Shown: in pieces, positions 58,050-64,000 of the stretch
Numbering within the stretch: the first letter of the stretch is position 1
Layout: each line of letters opens with the position of its first letter
From: Thioalkalivibrio sp. AKL19
Lineage (GTDB): Bacteria > Pseudomonadota > Gammaproteobacteria > Ectothiorhodospirales > Ectothiorhodospiraceae
NCBI RefSeq assembly: GCF_000420165.1
Contig: NZ_ATUK01000012.1
Location: forward strand, 124,001-188,000
DNA: 64,000 nucleotides
Direction: 5' to 3'
Made by a program: the position numbers and the translations under genes
The notes under the pieces: model-generated
The model's input: the letters and a program-made list of their open reading frames with translations, nothing else
The model's database searches: none
What the model was told of the DNA's origin: nothing

Positions 58050-58344
58050 AGGGAAACACTGATCCATGTACACACTCGCGTTGGCACCCCAGGTTTTCCG
58101 AGACAAGGCGCGTCGTGCAACAGGTAGTGGTTCTACCTATTGCACGACGCAGGATCGGGGAACCTGGGGTGCCGACCCCACAAACCATTGAAAGCAGAGG
58201 CTCGGCCGCGCGCTGTTATCAATAACGGGCGCGCGCACGGCGTTGCGGTTCCCTTATGCAGAATGACTGCACGGCAGTCACCGCGCCTTGTTCGCACGCA
58301 AAAGCAACTCGAGCGCGAGTGTGTACATGGATCAGTGTTTCCCT
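58050..58344. mobile_element. 295-bp MITE-like element with 31-bp perfect terminal inverted repeats
   Basis: Left end 58050-58080 (AGGGAAACACTGATCCATGT then ACACACTCGCG) and right end 58314-58344 are exact reverse complements. Inside the left part is a second large dyad: 58083-58095 pairs with 58161-58173, and 58110-58127 with 58133-58150 (one mismatch), forming a ~90-nt hairpin. No open frame of transposase size. The GGGAAACACTGAT tips resemble IS5-group ends (inference). No clear target duplication. It fills the convergent gap between the 66-aa and 202-aa genes. Half copy at 44588, degenerate end at 59788. Confidence 0.85.
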
Positions 58345-58355
58345 AGCGGCACCCT

Positions 58356-58964
58356 TCAGGAGCGGTCGGGACTGGCCGGCTGCACTGTCGGGAGCAGCGA
58401 TTCCAGGGCCGAGTCAAAGGCCTCGACCGCTTCCGGGCCGTCAATCGCCATCACCTGGTCGATCGCCCACTGCCGGTTGCCCGGTCCAAGGGCCTCGCTG
58501 ATCCGCGCGGCGAATGAGCGCCACAGGCTGAAACCGGGGCCTTCCTCCGCGCTGTAGCGACACTCGGCGTACTCGTCGCTGCGTGCGTTCACCTTGTCGA
58601 CAAACGCCTCGCGTACGCCGTCCACCGGTGCCGGCACCCGGTCGGGACCGGCCTTCAACTCGGCCAGGTTCTCCTCCAGCAGCCCGGCCAGGCGCAACGC
58701 CATCCCGGTCACGAAGCGGATCCGTTCTTCCTGCGAAAAGCGCTCGCTGACCCGACGATCGGCCAGGTGCAGCAGAAAGATCACGAATTCCTGAATCAGC
58801 TCCAGGCGTTGATCCTGGGTACGCGTCTCGAAGTCCTCGTTTTCCAGGTTGAGCACCCCGTTACAGGCGGCCCGCCAGGCGTTCGAGGCCGCCGCACTGG
58901 CGATATCCTCCAGACTGCGCGGACGCTCGCCCTGCGTCCAGCGATTGCGCAGGCGCAGGCTCAT
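58356..58964 (-). CDS. 202-aa protein of unknown function
   Basis: Not recognised. ATG at 58962-58964 overlaps the DUF3050 stop (ATGA). Soluble, helical, Glu/Ala-rich, no Cys in a motif: 'SLEDIASAAASNAWRAACNG', 'QRLELIQEFVIFLLHLADRR', 'RIRFVTGMALRLAGLLEENL', 'FSLWRSFAARISEALGPGNR'. The pattern suggests an all-alpha fold. Last gene of the dsr-divergent block; the MITE-like element begins 12 bp after its stop. Confidence 0.8.
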   Translation of the reverse strand: MSLRLRNRWTQGERPRSLEDIASAAASNAWRAACNGVLNLENEDFETRTQDQRLELIQEFVIFLLHLADRRVSERFSQEERIRFVTGMALRLAGLLEENLAELKAGPDRVPAPVDGVREAFVDKVNARSDEYAECRYSAEEGPGFSLWRSFAARISEALGPGNRQWAIDQVMAIDGPEAVEAFDSALESLLPTVQPASPDRS

Positions 58965-59761
58965 CCCGGCAGCCCCAGGCGCGCGCATACGCCGTCCCAC
59001 AGATCCAGGCGATCCTGGATCGCGGCCCGCGCCGCCTCCTGCGCCTCGGCGATCTTCGCCGGGTCGTCGCCGCACAGCGCCTCGACCAGCCGCAGCGAAA
59101 GCGGCCCGTGAAAGTCCTCGTCGAGATGGATGTGGCGTTGCAGGTAGAAATGGAACATCGGCGCGGCGGGGACATCGATCTGCATGCGCGCAAGGAACTG
59201 GCGGAACATCCCCGGGATCACGTGCTCGCGGCCCAGGGCCAGCGCAGCGGCAACCTCGTGCGGACGCCCGCGCTCGATGCGCTCGAAGGTCCGCCGTACG
59301 AAGCGCGCCGAGGGCTCCGGCGCAATCCCCGCATCCAGCGCCGCATCGATCCCCCGGGTCGTGGCCAGGGCGACGAACCGGCGCGCCGGCGCCGGGTCCG
59401 CGCCGACCTCGGCCATGGCCGCGCAATACAACTCGAAATGGCTCAGAAAGCGATCCTGGCCGTCGGGTCCGGGGATGCGGTCCGACTCCTCCTCCAGTAC
59501 CAGTTCGTTGATGAAGCGGCACACCCCGGCGTCCGGCCCCGGACCCCAGGGCCAGCGCACCGGAGCCACCTGCTGCTGGAGATACTTGATCAGGGACATG
59601 AAGTCCCAGACCGGATAGACGTGACTTTCCATGAACCCATGCAGGTCATGCAGATCACGCAGACCATAGACTGGGTGACGGTCCAGCTCGGCCTGCAACG
59701 GGGCGAGCGCGGCCCAGTCGGGTTGCGGGTGTTGTCGAACGGCCGCCTGAGTCATGGACAT
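58961..59761 (-). CDS. DUF3050 family protein (haem-oxygenase-like helical fold)
   Basis: 266 aa. Start ATG at 59759-59761; an ATG two codons later (59755) is equally possible. Family features: 'GLRDLHDLHGFMESHVYPVW' then 'DFMSLIKYLQQQV', 'NELVLEEESDRIPGPDGQDR', 'FLSHFELYCAAMAEVGADPA' and 'PMFHFYLQRHIHLDEDFHGP'. Conserved Glu and His residues in the helices (E-E-E-S, H-F-E, H-x-D-E-D-x-H) are arranged as in haem-oxygenase-like di-iron enzymes, so a metal-dependent oxidase is plausible (inference). Coupled to the 202-aa gene. Confidence 0.8.
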   Translation of the reverse strand: MSMTQAAVRQHPQPDWAALAPLQAELDRHPVYGLRDLHDLHGFMESHVYPVWDFMSLIKYLQQQVAPVRWPWGPGPDAGVCRFINELVLEEESDRIPGPDGQDRFLSHFELYCAAMAEVGADPAPARRFVALATTRGIDAALDAGIAPEPSARFVRRTFERIERGRPHEVAAALALGREHVIPGMFRQFLARMQIDVPAAPMFHFYLQRHIHLDEDFHGPLSLRLVEALCGDDPAKIAEAQEAARAAIQDRLDLWDGVCARLGLPG

Positions 59762-59787: not shown

Positions 59788-59817
59788 CGCGAGCGTGCGA
59801 ATGAATCCGTGTTTCCC
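59788..59817. mobile_element. Degenerate end of the MITE-like element
   Basis: The sequence ATCCGTGTTTCCCTAGCGG at the end matches the right tip of the element at 58314-58344 (ATCAGTGTTTCCCTAGCGG), with a weaker match inward. It touches the stop codon of the 67-aa gene, so TAG is shared with the CTAG at the tip. Confidence 0.5.
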
Positions 59818-60020
59818 TAGCGGTGGGAACCCTTCTCTGCGTGCGCCATGTCGACCAGGTCCATCGCGACGTCGCGAAATTCCTGGCGGTAGTTGTGCAG
59901 GGGGTGTCCATCCTCCGCGAGGTAATACTCCTCCGGGGTCACGCCATGGGCATGCTCGTATTCGATGAATTTCCTCTGCATCTCCAGCAGCTTCTTGATC
60001 TTTTCCTGTTTGTCGCTCAT
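59817..60020 (-). CDS. 67-aa charged protein of unknown function
   Basis: Not recognised. ATG at 60018-60020 with GGAGG 7 bp upstream. Helical and highly charged, no Cys: 'KQEKIKKLLEMQRKFIEYEH', 'HGVTPEEYYLAEDGHPLHNY', 'RQEFRDVAMDLVDMAHAEKG'. The stop codon is at the tip of a degenerate mobile-element end, which may have reset the C-terminus. Confidence 0.75.
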   Translation of the reverse strand: MSDKQEKIKKLLEMQRKFIEYEHAHGVTPEEYYLAEDGHPLHNYRQEFRDVAMDLVDMAHAEKGSHR

Positions 60021-60126
60021 CTCGCAACCTCCATCCGGACATTTGGCAAGGGTCCAATCGCAATATAGCACCGGCATCCGGCACCGCTTACCCCCCTTAA
60101 GAGGTAGGGGCGCGCGACCCTCGCCA

Positions 60127-60816
60127 CTACATCATCCCCGGCGCCGAATGCACCGGCGCAACATCCTTGTGGCCGTTGAACAGTCCGCAACCCATCAATC
60201 GGCCCGGCCCCAGGCCCTCGTGCTGCAACCGCAGCGAGGCGGCAGGGTCCAGGTCGGCCACCAGCAGGCGGCGAGTGAACAGCGCGCCGTCCGGGGTGTG
60301 CAGTTCGTGGCTGCGCCCGCACAACAGTTTCGACACCGGCACATCCAGGGCGCGCAGGTCCTCCGCCACCTCGCGGAGAAAGGCGGTTTCGTCCTGGTCC
60401 GCCCGCGCCACCACATAGCGCGCCATCAGTGCCGGCTGGGCCCGCAGGGGCAATACCGAGAGCGCCCCGAGTTCCAGCGCCACCGACCCCAGATCCAGGC
60501 GCTGCCCTTCGAGGTGCCGCACGTCGTCCAGGCGCGCCCGGGGCAGCCGCAAGCGCAACCGGGCACGCCGCGACAGCGGCATGGAACCGGCACCGGACTG
60601 ATCCGGGCGGGTCCAGCCATTGCCGGACTCGGCGCCGTGGATCAGATGGATGCCGGCATGGACCTCGTCGCGCAGCCAGGGCAGCGCGGCGCAGACCACG
60701 CACGACAGGCCGTGCGCGTGATCCAGCGGCAGCTCGCGGCACTGCACACGGAACGCGACATCCACCATGTGGTCGGCCTGCATCGAGGCCCCGCCGGGGG
60801 TGTCGTCCCAGAACAT
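60127..60816 (-). CDS. Cas6/Cmx6-like (RAMP) protein, no CRISPR array nearby
   Basis: 229 aa. It strongly resembles the Cas6/Cmx6 endoribonuclease of I-MYXAN-type CRISPR systems. The N-terminus MFWDD...VDVAFRVQCRELPLDHAHG is typical, then 'EVHAGIHLIHGAESGNGWTR', 'LSRRARLRLRLPRARLDDVR', 'SKLLCGRSHELHTPDGALFT' and the C-terminal Gly-rich loop 'LQHEGLGPGRLMGCGLFNGH' (K follows), as in RAMP RNA-binding proteins. His residues (DHAHG) could serve catalysis. No other cas gene and no array is in the window. It starts 4 bp after the 64-aa gene. An RNA-processing role outside CRISPR is possible (inference). Confidence 0.8.
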   Translation of the reverse strand: MFWDDTPGGASMQADHMVDVAFRVQCRELPLDHAHGLSCVVCAALPWLRDEVHAGIHLIHGAESGNGWTRPDQSGAGSMPLSRRARLRLRLPRARLDDVRHLEGQRLDLGSVALELGALSVLPLRAQPALMARYVVARADQDETAFLREVAEDLRALDVPVSKLLCGRSHELHTPDGALFTRRLLVADLDPAASLRLQHEGLGPGRLMGCGLFNGHKDVAPVHSAPGMM

Positions 60817-60820
60817 GGCG

Positions 60821-61015
60821 CTAGTCCAGCGGAGAGGTGAAGGCCGCCTCGAGCCGGTCTTCCCAGTCGGGCGGGGTATCCGGAAACGGCGGTTTCACGT
60901 CCGAACTCAGAAAATGCTCGCCCTCGCGGGCATGCTGGCGCACTCGCTCCAGCAACGCCTCGAACGACTGCAACTGGTCCTGCTCACGCATCAACAACTC
61001 GCTCAACCACAACAT
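60821..61015 (-). CDS. 64-aa protein of unknown function
   Basis: Not recognised. ATG at 61013-61015 with GAGGAG 6 bp upstream. Helical N-terminal half ('LWLSELLMREQDQLQSFEAL', 'LERVRQHAREGEHFLSSDVK') and a Pro/Asp-rich end ('PPFPDTPPDWEDRLEAAFTS'). Lies between the TauD-like gene (23 bp) and the Cas6-like gene (4 bp), so it is most likely an operon partner of both. Confidence 0.75.
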   Translation of the reverse strand: MLWLSELLMREQDQLQSFEALLERVRQHAREGEHFLSSDVKPPFPDTPPDWEDRLEAAFTSPLD

Positions 61016-61038
61016 GCCGGTCTCCTCGGGTCAGTGGT

Positions 61039-61956
61039 TCAGGTGCCGGGTACGCGCTGCGGAAAACGCGCCCGGTAGAGCAGGCGTCGGCGCCCGGTAG
61101 CGCCTGGATCGTCAGTGAACCCGGTGCGCGCATGCAGCACGTTATTGCAGATCACGCCCTCGCCCGGGGCCAGGCGATGGCGCAGCACCCCCGGGCCCTC
61201 CTCGGTCAGGATCTCGCGGATGCGCTGGGCGGCCGCGCGGGTTACCGGTTCGTCGCGCCACTCGATACTGCGGGTGCGCGCGGTGTAGCGCATGTGCAGA
61301 TGCCCGGACCCCGGGTCCACGCTGAACACCGGGCCGGTCGATACGGCGCGCAGGGTCACGCCATCTTCCACGTTGGCGGGAATGGTCAGGGCGCGCGAGT
61401 CGCTCAGTGCCTCGATCCAGTCGGGATTCTCGTCGCGCAGACGGATGTACAGCAGCTCCGGGTCAAGGAACAGATTCTCGCCGCCCTCCCGGGCATCGGC
61501 GACGCAGTGCAGCAACATCGCGCGGATGCGCCGTTCCGGTGGGTTGTAGTAGCCGTCGCAGTGCCAGCTCAGCGGGCGATCGGTATACGGAACATACCCC
61601 GCCCGACGGCCCGCGCCGCAGACCTGCAATGCGCTGATGCCATCCTCGTCGGCGCATTCGTGCGGGTCCGGCCGGTCGAATCCCAAGGCACTGCAGAGGT
61701 CCGCAAAGCCACGCCGGTCCAGCTCGCGGGCGGACGGGTCACAGCGGTAGAAGGCGAGGTTGTGACAGCGGATGCGTTCGCGCAGCGCCGCCAGCTCTCC
61801 CGCCGTAGGTCGCGCCGCGTCGGTCAGCGGCACATAAAGGGCGTCGGGCGTGGGCATGCCACGCCCCAGGCGGGCGGCGCGCCAGGCGTGCCACGCGTCG
61901 CCGGCCTGCAGATCGAACGGCGAGGTCGCCGCTGTCTCCCGGGCAATGGCATTCAT
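61039..61956 (-). CDS. TauD/TfdA-like Fe(II)/2-oxoglutarate dioxygenase
   Basis: 305 aa from the ATG at 61954-61956. Iron ligands: H132-x-D134 in 'DRPLSWHCDGYYNPPERRIR' and distal H275 in 'GVICNNVLHARTGFTDDPGA'; the 2-oxoglutarate-binding Arg is in 'GRRRLLYRARFPQ'. Double-stranded beta-helix of the TauD clan ('ILTEEGPGVLRHRLAPGEGV'). TauD releases sulfite from taurine (established). Here the substrate is unknown, but the divergent dsrAB makes a sulfonate or sulfite link tempting. First gene of the leftward block. Confidence 0.85.
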   Translation of the reverse strand: MNAIARETAATSPFDLQAGDAWHAWRAARLGRGMPTPDALYVPLTDAARPTAGELAALRERIRCHNLAFYRCDPSARELDRRGFADLCSALGFDRPDPHECADEDGISALQVCGAGRRAGYVPYTDRPLSWHCDGYYNPPERRIRAMLLHCVADAREGGENLFLDPELLYIRLRDENPDWIEALSDSRALTIPANVEDGVTLRAVSTGPVFSVDPGSGHLHMRYTARTRSIEWRDEPVTRAAAQRIREILTEEGPGVLRHRLAPGEGVICNNVLHARTGFTDDPGATGRRRLLYRARFPQRVPGT

Positions 61957-62371
61957 CGGTCCACTGTCTCCGCCCCTGGCCGCACACATGCATTGAAGAT
62001 TTCCAGTGTAGTGCGGCCCCGCCGACCCACAACACTCCTTTCGGGGTAGCCCCGGAAACCGCCCGGAGCGCATTGGCACAGGTATTTCCATCCTCCGACG
62101 CCCGCCCCCGCGGGCACCCGAGGCCCTTGCCCCTATACCCACGGGGATATACCCCCCTCCCCCCATACACCCCAACAGCAGGATGTCCAGTGCCTTTGCG
62201 CCGGCCTAAAGTCTCCAGAAGAAGGACGGGGCCTGCGCCCACTGAAAGCGTCGGCATCCCGAAAAAAGACCTCGGACAGGGATCGGTGCTGGATCTGGTA
62301 ACGGCCACTGGTGTGGATTGCGTTCCCGGCACGTGACCCCAACGCACGCGACACCCTGCTAGGAGATTGTC
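61957..62371. promoter_or_regulatory. Divergent control region between the TauD-like gene and dsrA
   Basis: 415 bp with no gene. It should hold promoters for both directions. On the + strand TTGCCC (62127-62132) and TATACC (62148-62153) are 15 bp apart, a weak -35/-10 pair. Around them is C-tract DNA (ACGGGGATATACCCCCCTCC). A GCCCGC-CCC-GCGGGC hairpin lies at about 62102. At 62361-62365 AGGAG is the dsrA ribosome site. The long leader suggests regulation, but I see no operator that I can name. Confidence 0.4.
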
Positions 62372-63649
62372 ATGGCCAAGAATCATCACCCCACTCCCAT
62401 GCTCGACGAACTCGAGAACGGCCCCTGGCCGAGCTTCATCTCGGGCATCAAGAGCCTGCGGGACAAGCACCCCGACGACCGCATCCAGGGCATCAGCAAT
62501 GACCTGCTGGGCCAGCTCGAGCATTCCTACGAGACCCGCAAGGGCTACTGGAAGGGCGGCACGGTATCGGTATTCGGCTATGGCTCCGGGATCATCCCGC
62601 GCTTCTCGGAAGTCGGCAACGCATTCCCGAATTCCAAGGAATTCCACACGGTGCGCGTCCAGCCGCCGGCCGGCAATTTCTACACCACCGACATGCTGCG
62701 CAAGCTCGCGAACTCCTGGGAAAAGTACGGCTCCGGCCTGGTGACGTTCCACGGCCAGACCGGCAACGCGATGTTCATCGGGGTGAATACCGAGAACACC
62801 CAGAAGTTCTTCGACGAGATCAATGAATACGGTTTCGATCTCGGCGGTGCCGGCCCCTGCGTGCGTACCGGTATGTCCTGCGTGGGCGCAGCGCGTTGCG
62901 AACAGTCCTGCGCCAACGAGCAGCGCATTCACCGCACCCTGCTGAACCGGTTCACCGACGACGTCCACCGCCCGTCGCTGCCGTACAAGTTCAAGTTCAA
63001 GGTATCCGGCTGCCCGAACGACTGCGTGAACGCGATCGAGCGTTCCGACTTCGCGGTAATCGGCACCTGGCGCGACGCGATGAAGATCGACCAGGCCAAG
63101 GTGAAGGAATTCATCCAGGAGAAGGGACGCGCCGAGGTCATCGACAACGTCACCACGCGTTGCCCGACCCGCTGCATGACCCTGCATGACGACGACACCC
63201 TGGAAGTCGACGACAAGAACTGCGTGCGCTGCATGCACTGCCTGAACGTGATGCACACCGCCCTGTCGCCGGGTGACGACCGCGGCGTCAGCATCCTGCT
63301 GGGCGGCAAGCGCACCCTGAAGATTGGCGACCTGATGGGCACCGTAATCGTGCCGTTCATGAAGCTGGACACCGACGAGGATTACGCCCAGCTCACCGAG
63401 CTGGCCGAGAACATCATCGATTTCTGGGCCGAGAACGGTCTGGAGCACGAGCGTTGCGGCGAAATGATCGAACGCATCGGCTTGATGAATTTCCTGAAGG
63501 AACTGGGCATCGACGCCGATCCGAACATGATCAACCACCCGCGCCAGAGCTCCTACGTCCGTCTCGACGGCTTCGACGAGGCTGCGGAAGAGCACCTGCG
63601 TCGCAAGATGGAACAACGGCAGCAGGCGACGGCGACAGCCAGCCACTAG
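62372..63649 (+). CDS. dsrA: Dissimilatory sulfite reductase alpha subunit (reverse type)
   Basis: Catalytic subunit pair member that, in sulfur oxidisers, turns stored or carried sulfur to sulfite in the cytoplasm. 425 aa. The siroheme-[4Fe-4S] Cys are C170, C176 (C-x5-C, 'GMSCVGAARCEQSCANEQ') and C214, C218 (C-x3-C, 'VSGCPNDCVNAIE'). An inserted ferredoxin domain follows with 'CPTRCMTLHDDDTLEV' and 'NCVRCMHCLNVMHTALSPG'. AGGAG 6 bp before the ATG. Followed 56 bp later by dsrB. The oxidative rather than reductive type is inferred from the gammaproteobacterial setting. Confidence 0.95.
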   Translation: MAKNHHPTPMLDELENGPWPSFISGIKSLRDKHPDDRIQGISNDLLGQLEHSYETRKGYWKGGTVSVFGYGSGIIPRFSEVGNAFPNSKEFHTVRVQPPAGNFYTTDMLRKLANSWEKYGSGLVTFHGQTGNAMFIGVNTENTQKFFDEINEYGFDLGGAGPCVRTGMSCVGAARCEQSCANEQRIHRTLLNRFTDDVHRPSLPYKFKFKVSGCPNDCVNAIERSDFAVIGTWRDAMKIDQAKVKEFIQEKGRAEVIDNVTTRCPTRCMTLHDDDTLEVDDKNCVRCMHCLNVMHTALSPGDDRGVSILLGGKRTLKIGDLMGTVIVPFMKLDTDEDYAQLTELAENIIDFWAENGLEHERCGEMIERIGLMNFLKELGIDADPNMINHPRQSSYVRLDGFDEAAEEHLRRKMEQRQQATATASH

Positions 63650-63705: not shown

Positions 63706-64000
63706 ATGGCACAGGCACAGGAAATGCGTTCCCCCATCGAGTCCGGGTGTCCGGACGGATTCCAGTACATGCATCCGGTGATGCGCCGGAACTTCGGCAT
63801 GTGGGATCACCATGCCCACCCCGCACCGGGTGTGCTGTATCACGAGTCCGAGTCGGGCGAAGGCATATGGACGGTCCGCGCCGGGACCCAGCGCATCCTC
63901 GACGTCTTCACCCTGCGCAAGCTGTGCGACATCGGTGACCAGTACGGCGACGGCTACGTGCGCTTCACCACCCGTTCCAACATCGAGTACATGGTGGATG
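63706..64000 (+). CDS. dsrB: Dissimilatory sulfite reductase beta subunit (5' part; cut by window)
   Basis: The first 98 codons of the beta subunit. The ATG is at 63706, with GGAG about 9 bp upstream. The start 'MAQAQEMRSPIESGCPDGFQ' is followed by YMHPVMRRNFGMWDHH, 'PGVLYHESESGEGIWTVRAG' and 'YGDGYVRFTTRSNIEYMVD', all typical of DsrB. The siroheme and cluster Cys lie beyond the edge. Further dsr genes (EFHCMKLJOPN) are expected to the right. Confidence 0.93.
   Translation, partial: MAQAQEMRSPIESGCPDGFQYMHPVMRRNFGMWDHHAHPAPGVLYHESESGEGIWTVRAGTQRILDVFTLRKLCDIGDQYGDGYVRFTTRSNIEYMVD

Follow-up and report, generated by a model that had tools for sequence, protein, structure and literature searches.

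Cas6 proteins are known as cutters of CRISPR RNA, and the locus described here raises the question what a protein of this family does beside dsrAB, in a sulfur oxidation locus. In the window (the whole analysed stretch of 64,000 nucleotides) a Cas6/Cmx6-type protein of 229 amino acids, with a candidate catalytic histidine, His33, and a Gly-rich C-terminal motif, is encoded on the minus strand at 60127-60816. It is preceded on the same strand by p64, a small conserved protein of 64 amino acids which is a frequent same-strand neighbour upstream of Cas6 (60821-61015), and by a TauD-like dioxygenase in the DsrQ position (61039-61956; PF02668, E 8.7e-22), the gaps being 4 bp between Cas6 and p64 and 23 bp between p64 and TauD. 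The leftward set goes on with p86, a further small conserved protein kept in related loci (59817-60077, minus strand), and ends with a DUF3050 protein (58961-59761, minus strand; PF11251, E 2e-83). On the plus strand run dsrA, an ORF at 62372-63649, and dsrB, which starts at 63706, reaches the last position of the window (64000) and crosses its edge into the adjoining stretch, L056. The original prediction had described a tight leftward set of TauD, a 64-residue protein and Cas6 with the same spacings, divergent from dsrAB, and all of this was found in place.

No credible Pfam match was obtained for p64 and p86. In many relatives the p86 alignment begins at residue 19-20, therefore the true start of this gene may be near 60020. 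The DUF3050 gene is conserved in close relatives, being present at 14 of the 17 family loci and at 10 of the 80 loci of the wider set. The genome to which the window belongs (2.88 Mb in 18 contigs, 99.93% complete) has a single copy of the Cas6 gene. The locus is more than a chance assembly: comparison of this gene with two close relatives gave dN/dS values of 0.15 and 0.19, and the same arrangement is met again elsewhere in the family and in the class.

Identity of the Cas6-like protein

The assignment of this protein to Cas6/Cmx6, which had been based on N-terminal, central and Gly-rich features, was borne out by profile searches. It scored 196.9 bits against PF09559 (E 4.3e-58, cut-off 26.7) and 116.2 bits against TIGR02807 (cut-off 98.85), six PADLOC Cas6 models matched it with E 5.6e-18 or better, and the sequence match in the PDB was 8fcj_B (E 9.9e-16). 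The AF2 model, built on 73 aligned sequences, had a mean pLDDT of 85.0 and a pTM of 0.81; in the Foldseek comparison it was closest to the Cas6 of the type I-B CAST (8fcj_B, E 7.8e-16, TM 0.74/0.78; 8fcu_B, TM 0.75/0.80), followed by Pyrococcus Cas6 and then by Cas6e. By profile and by predicted fold, the window protein is shown to be a true Cas6/Cmx6 homologue. The CAST protein, the best PDB match both in sequence and in fold (TM 0.74-0.80), is part of a Cascade-transposon complex, unlike the context of the Cas6 gene in the window.

In Cas6 enzymes the catalytic histidine lies in the N-terminal part, and His33, which belongs to a DH motif, is placed just ahead of helix 1 in the model; we infer that it is the catalytic residue. 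Of 122 aligned sequences, taken from the window, from 117 loci of the class and from four of the phylum draw, 120 keep it, the exceptions being one Asn and one Tyr, thus loss of the nuclease function in the dsr-linked proteins looks less likely. Arg84 and Arg90 are present in all 122 sequences, Gly209 in 118, Cys210 in 107 and Gly211 in 120. The same histidine was found in all five CRISPR-linked cyanobacterial Cmx6 proteins compared and in one Gloeobacter homologue, whereas 8fcj_B, the nearest solved relative, has Asn at this place. Most proteins of the dsr group carry an insertion, AESGNGWxRP, whose Trp68 is present in 118 of the 122 sequences and absent from the four phylum-draw loci, and a C-terminal HK motif; the five CRISPR-linked sequences have neither.

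Co-occurrence with dsr and the CRISPR context

The distribution of the gene was followed from the family to the phylum. Among the 47 genomes of the family (searches at the order level returned the same 47) the Cas6 gene was found in 17, at 18 places. It was dsrA that tracked it: dsrA was detected in 16 of the 47 genomes, the same set except for G028, whose short contig includes just 27 residues from the start of dsrA. The best dsrA copies of family genomes were near full length and 82-100% identical, and three family genomes had a further copy which is 65-66% identical to that of the window (L074/G013, L075/G041 and L077/G042). In the 17 related family loci Cas6 was accompanied by TauD in every case, and by p64 and dsrA in 16 each, the contig of the remaining one ending first. 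In one draft genome, G042, two Cas6 loci were seen (L039 and L043), one of the two proteins being 95% identical to that of the window; since its contamination is 5%, this may be a mixed bin.

A scan of GTDB contigs, run with patterns that favour the dsr-linked group, gave 200 relatives, of which the best 80 were examined; this set shares loci with the family survey. Most of the 80 are titled as Gammaproteobacteria or as genera of sulfur oxidizers, and a few bear other names, e.g. Candidatus Muproteobacteria. When loci truncated at contig ends are counted too, p64 was found in 73 of them, TauD in 68, dsrA in 60 and p86 in 57.

In the class draw of 369 genomes, dsrA was present in 111 of the 118 genomes with a PF09559 match; seven genomes had PF09559 alone, eight of the 119 with dsrA had dsrA alone and 243 had neither. 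The two draws contained the same genomes as far as their listings show, and Fisher's test gave p 7e-75, a value which treats genomes as independent, which they are not. In each of the seven genomes with PF09559 alone no more than 2.7 kb of contig remains upstream of Cas6, and one of these genomes (G744, L315) shows a dsrA fragment there; among the eight with dsrA alone, five are less than 90% complete and three are 94-99% complete. Among the 87 class loci for which 5.5 kb or more of upstream sequence is available, 70 have a divergent dsrA upstream of Cas6. The genomes of the other 17 have dsrA elsewhere, which indicates that Cas6 is tied to the possession of dsr and not to mere adjacency. By tblastn, the 117 class loci outside the genome of the window contained p64 in 96 cases, a DsrC-like gene in 101 (some of these being the dsrC of the dsr operon itself), dsrA in 82, TauD in 81 and p86 in 57, the common order being dsrAB / TauD(DsrQ)-p64-Cas6-DsrC-like-p86. 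A 248-residue protein with no Pfam match occurs in 44 of the 117 loci, and in one group of loci lies between p64 and Cas6 (e.g. L092:9253-9996).

In the phylum draw PF09559 was matched in five of 398 genomes, including that of the window; at the other four loci a divergent dsrA adjoins Cas6 and a TauD gene lies within about 2 kb. Of the 53 genomes of this draw with dsrA (E 1e-40), five are of the same class, and these are the five with PF09559. No PF09559 match was found in the 48 dsrA genomes from outside the class, and the link is specific to this one. Outside cellular genomes, viral contigs gave 38 pattern matches, none of which encoded a relative, phage records gave no match, and the six plasmid records that matched were cyanobacterial.

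The gene has also been retained where the genome measures just 1.0-1.1 Mb (G085, G576, G683, G713 and G774), and in G544 (L387), G655 (L385) and G749 (L383), genomes of 1.4-1.6 Mb which belong to one family, it adjoins, as read by eye, rnc, era and recO. These cases bear on the possibility that Cas6 is a decaying, functionless hitch-hiker of the dsr cluster. Its high divergence would fit such a fate, the median identity over 78 pairs of genes being 0.44 versus 0.765 for DsrA, but the low dN/dS, the conserved residues and the retention of the gene away from dsr and in the genomes of 1.0-1.1 Mb make this idea hardly credible. The distances of Cas6 and DsrA are positively correlated, to a modest degree (78 sequences, Spearman 0.341, none of 999 permutations as high), hence the histories of the two genes may be partly separate.

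The NCBI model passed by the protein names a type I-MYXAN CRISPR protein. The type I-MYXAN Cmx6 of the Synechocystis sp. PCC 6714 plasmid pSYLB shares with the window protein the TIGR02807 match, a similar length, the Gly-rich motif and the DH motif with the candidate histidine. On pSYLB, however, it adjoins cas3, cmx8, cas5, cas4/cas1 and cas2, while no such gene was found near the Cas6 of the window, and the tblastn search with the Synechocystis Cas3, Cmx8 and Cas1 as queries (E 1e-3) found no relatives at any of the 117 class loci. The claim that the 64 kb hold no CRISPR array agrees with our array scan, which detected none in the window or in the 19 kb beyond it (L056); of 21 control loci, all but one of them Cas1 loci with short flanks, the scan was positive at 16. 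Profile searches of the same genome gave no Cas1 match and no Cas3 above the cut-off, with five weaker, helicase-like matches. A CRISPR-Cas locus elsewhere in the genome, to which the protein might belong, was looked for by the Cas1 and Cas3 profiles and by the scan of the window and the 19 kb, and was not found by these means. Elsewhere, a three-copy repeat at L381:15288-16429 was the sole case flagged by the array scan among the 117 loci.

One reading of the family name would be that Cas6 is a stray CRISPR gene which matures the crRNAs of distant arrays and stands beside dsr by accident. In agreement with it, Cas1 was present in 12 of the 32 Cas6-positive genomes searched for it. The other 20, including the genome of the window, have no Cas1, and 14 of these are at least 90% complete; the gene thus stays with dsr in genomes without Cas1. 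In the family, Cas1 was no commoner with Cas6 (7 of 17 genomes) than in its absence (15 of 30), and Cas3 passed the cut-off in just four of the 17 Cas6-positive genomes. The tracking of dsrA and the lack of I-MYXAN relatives nearby speak against this reading too, as does the unrooted tree of 50 rows (44 sequences drawn from the 122 of the dsr group, five CRISPR-linked ones and one from Gloeobacter), in which a single branch (100/98) separates the dsr rows from the CRISPR rows. We consider it very improbable; a CRISPR relic, or an enzyme acting in trans on crRNA, is disfavoured by the Cas1 and Cas3 results and by the gene context.

The Gloeobacter row joins the CRISPR side of the tree by a long branch, and the five CRISPR-linked Cmx6 proteins are 22-28% identical to that of the window. 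The suggestion that a Cas6 fold was recruited to a sulfur oxidation locus holds in so far as the fold and its service to dsr are supported. The direction from CRISPR to dsr is one of two that an unrooted tree allows: the CRISPR Cmx6 could equally have descended from a dsr-linked lineage outside CRISPR. As a separate observation, the Gloeobacter morelensis plasmid pGMOR1 (L217) has a gene annotated as Cmx6 whose surroundings, over 3 kb, hold no further annotated cas gene. It lies near genes of the PAPS-reductase family and of a cupin, and this may be another context of Cas6 outside CRISPR.

Partner proteins and candidate RNA targets

Where 1.1 kb or more of upstream sequence was available (109 class loci), p64 lies upstream of Cas6 on the same strand in 93 cases. 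Its dN is 0.014 and its dS 0.50 against one relative. Its AF2 model (pLDDT 86.0, pTM 0.68) had no PDB match with E<=0.001. At six loci of the Beggiatoa/Thiomargarita type (L106, L107, L127, L129, L135 and L140) p64 stays with Cas6, and dsr and TauD were not found there.

A protein of the DsrC family (PF04358) follows Cas6 in the same orientation, at a distance of no more than 1.5 kb, at 84 of the 110 loci with enough sequence. Unlike DsrC/TusE, it lacks Cys in its last three residues (e.g. L088:10687-11073 and L113:4718-5059): this holds for all of the 88 such proteins extracted, 85 of which have KGGY as their C-terminus, and eight have a Cys slightly further in. DsrC/TusE paralogues without the Cys are called RspA. 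No such gene lies beside Cas6 in the window; a search of the window together with L056 gave one real match, the dsrC of the dsr operon.

As for the TauD-like gene, the study cited for dsrQ is reportedly that of Lenk et al. 2012. A tauD/dsrQ gene divergent from dsr has been described (PMC7596348), and the PF02668 gene of the window, divergent from rdsrAB, fits this arrangement; the part of that article used here mentions no Cas6-like neighbour, and "CRISPR" occurs 0 times in its main text.

The region between the two operons holds a 16-bp palindrome, TATCCC-N4-GGGATA, whose copy in the window has one mismatch (62134-62149, no strand assigned). With up to two mismatches it was found in 69 of 82 intergenic regions on the dsrA side, that of the window included (0.9 in single-base shuffles), and in the intergenic regions of L273-L389 it is often followed by CACCCCAT, upstream of dsrA. 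The copy at 62134-62149 is the sole match with at most one mismatch in the window; outside it such sites occur in 49 intergenic regions and number 54 in all 117 loci (1.61 Mb), so that in the fetched loci the palindrome hardly occurs outside the promoter region of dsr. Upstream of the Cas6 operons away from dsr it was not found in 16 of 17 cases, where at least four mismatches are present. The palindrome seems therefore to belong to dsr, and is likely to be a DNA operator of dsr for a putative dsr regulator. Its frequent presence in the divergent region might also mean that the Cas6-like protein regulates its own operon or dsr at the shared promoter, acting through the palindrome on DNA or nascent RNA. 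We regard this as improbable, since the site does not follow Cas6 away from dsr. Its reading as an RNA hairpin was rejected, because covariation did not exceed that of shuffles: compensatory pairs numbered three in total, all of them at the same one of the six positions, and 91 of 500 shuffles reached as many.

Strong hairpins of variable sequence were found at two fixed places of the dsr operons of L273-L389, the dsrA-dsrB gap (mean z -1.43, 72 gaps) and the dsrC-dsrM gap (-2.19, 63 gaps), gaps outside 40-200 nt being excluded. The corresponding values were -0.01 for control stretches (73), -0.30 and 0.21 for the leaders (80 each) and -0.45 for the Cas6-DsrC gaps (73). As a target specific to Cas6 these hairpins were rejected, because three of four dsr operons of genomes outside the class, in which no PF09559 match was obtained, also have them at each place; a single genome of the same class with dsrA and no PF09559 match is without them and points the other way. 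A MITE-like element at 58050-58344, with perfect 31-bp terminal inverted repeats, was likewise considered as a substrate and rejected. The core of its ends occurs 34 times in the genome of the window, and the 18-nt core in 18 of the 47 family genomes, but 14 of these 18 lack this Cas6. Rfam gave two matches in 8 kb, both below the gathering score and taken as chance. No RNA element specific to Cas6 was found in the palindrome, the dsr gaps and leaders, the dispersed repeat or the Rfam search.

Function and meaning of the dsr-linked family

The occurrence of this family next to dsr, without its usual CRISPR partner genes nearby, suggests that sulfur oxidation is coupled to a step of RNA handling. 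We think it probable that a CRISPR-independent Cas6/Cmx6 group serves reverse-Dsr sulfur oxidation by a Cas6-type action on RNA, in which p64 and the DsrC-like protein would be its partners. Its function there would most likely be that of a hairpin-RNA endonuclease outside CRISPR. In the mechanism that we infer, with its cleavage, its complex and its RNA target, a short RNA hairpin would be bound by the two RRM-like halves and the Gly-rich loop of Cas6 and cut without a metal, with His33 as the catalytic residue. Cas6 would work with p64 and, in most relatives, with the cysteine-poor DsrC-like protein, and the cutting or binding of a cellular RNA (candidates are the mRNA of dsr or of the TauD operon, a small RNA or a tRNA) would adjust sulfur oxidation. 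We put forward more tentatively the fuller proposal, that a Cas6-type endoribonuclease, near-universal in the reverse Dsr systems of the class, couples RNA cleavage to sulfur oxidation with p64 and the Cys-less DsrC.

The main rival of cleavage is an RNA-binding Cas6 fold that does not cut, i.e. a structural or regulatory subunit in complex with p64 and the DsrC-like protein which has lost its nuclease activity. No array that would need cutting is known for the group, and the insertion and the HK motif set most members apart from the five CRISPR-linked sequences; the absence of Cys from the last three residues of all 88 DsrC-like proteins and the loss of His33 in two of the 122 members would also fit. 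On the other hand, the retention of His33 in the remaining 120 is more than expected if catalysis were dispensable, and this reading is in our opinion possible but rather unlikely.

In the open-licence literature searched, no report of a dsr-linked Cas6 homologue was found; an earlier mention elsewhere is possible. Although the window protein passes a model named for a CRISPR protein, in this class its family tracks dsrA, and PF09559 matches should not be counted as evidence of CRISPR. With a candidate histidine, partner proteins and named hosts such as Thioalkalivibrio denitrificans ALJD (L087) and Tv. sulfidiphilus ALJ17 (L088) at hand, the question of RNA cutting is directly testable. If the protein does cut RNA, the reverse Dsr pathway would have an unsuspected RNA-processing arm, and Cas6 would have a life outside CRISPR.
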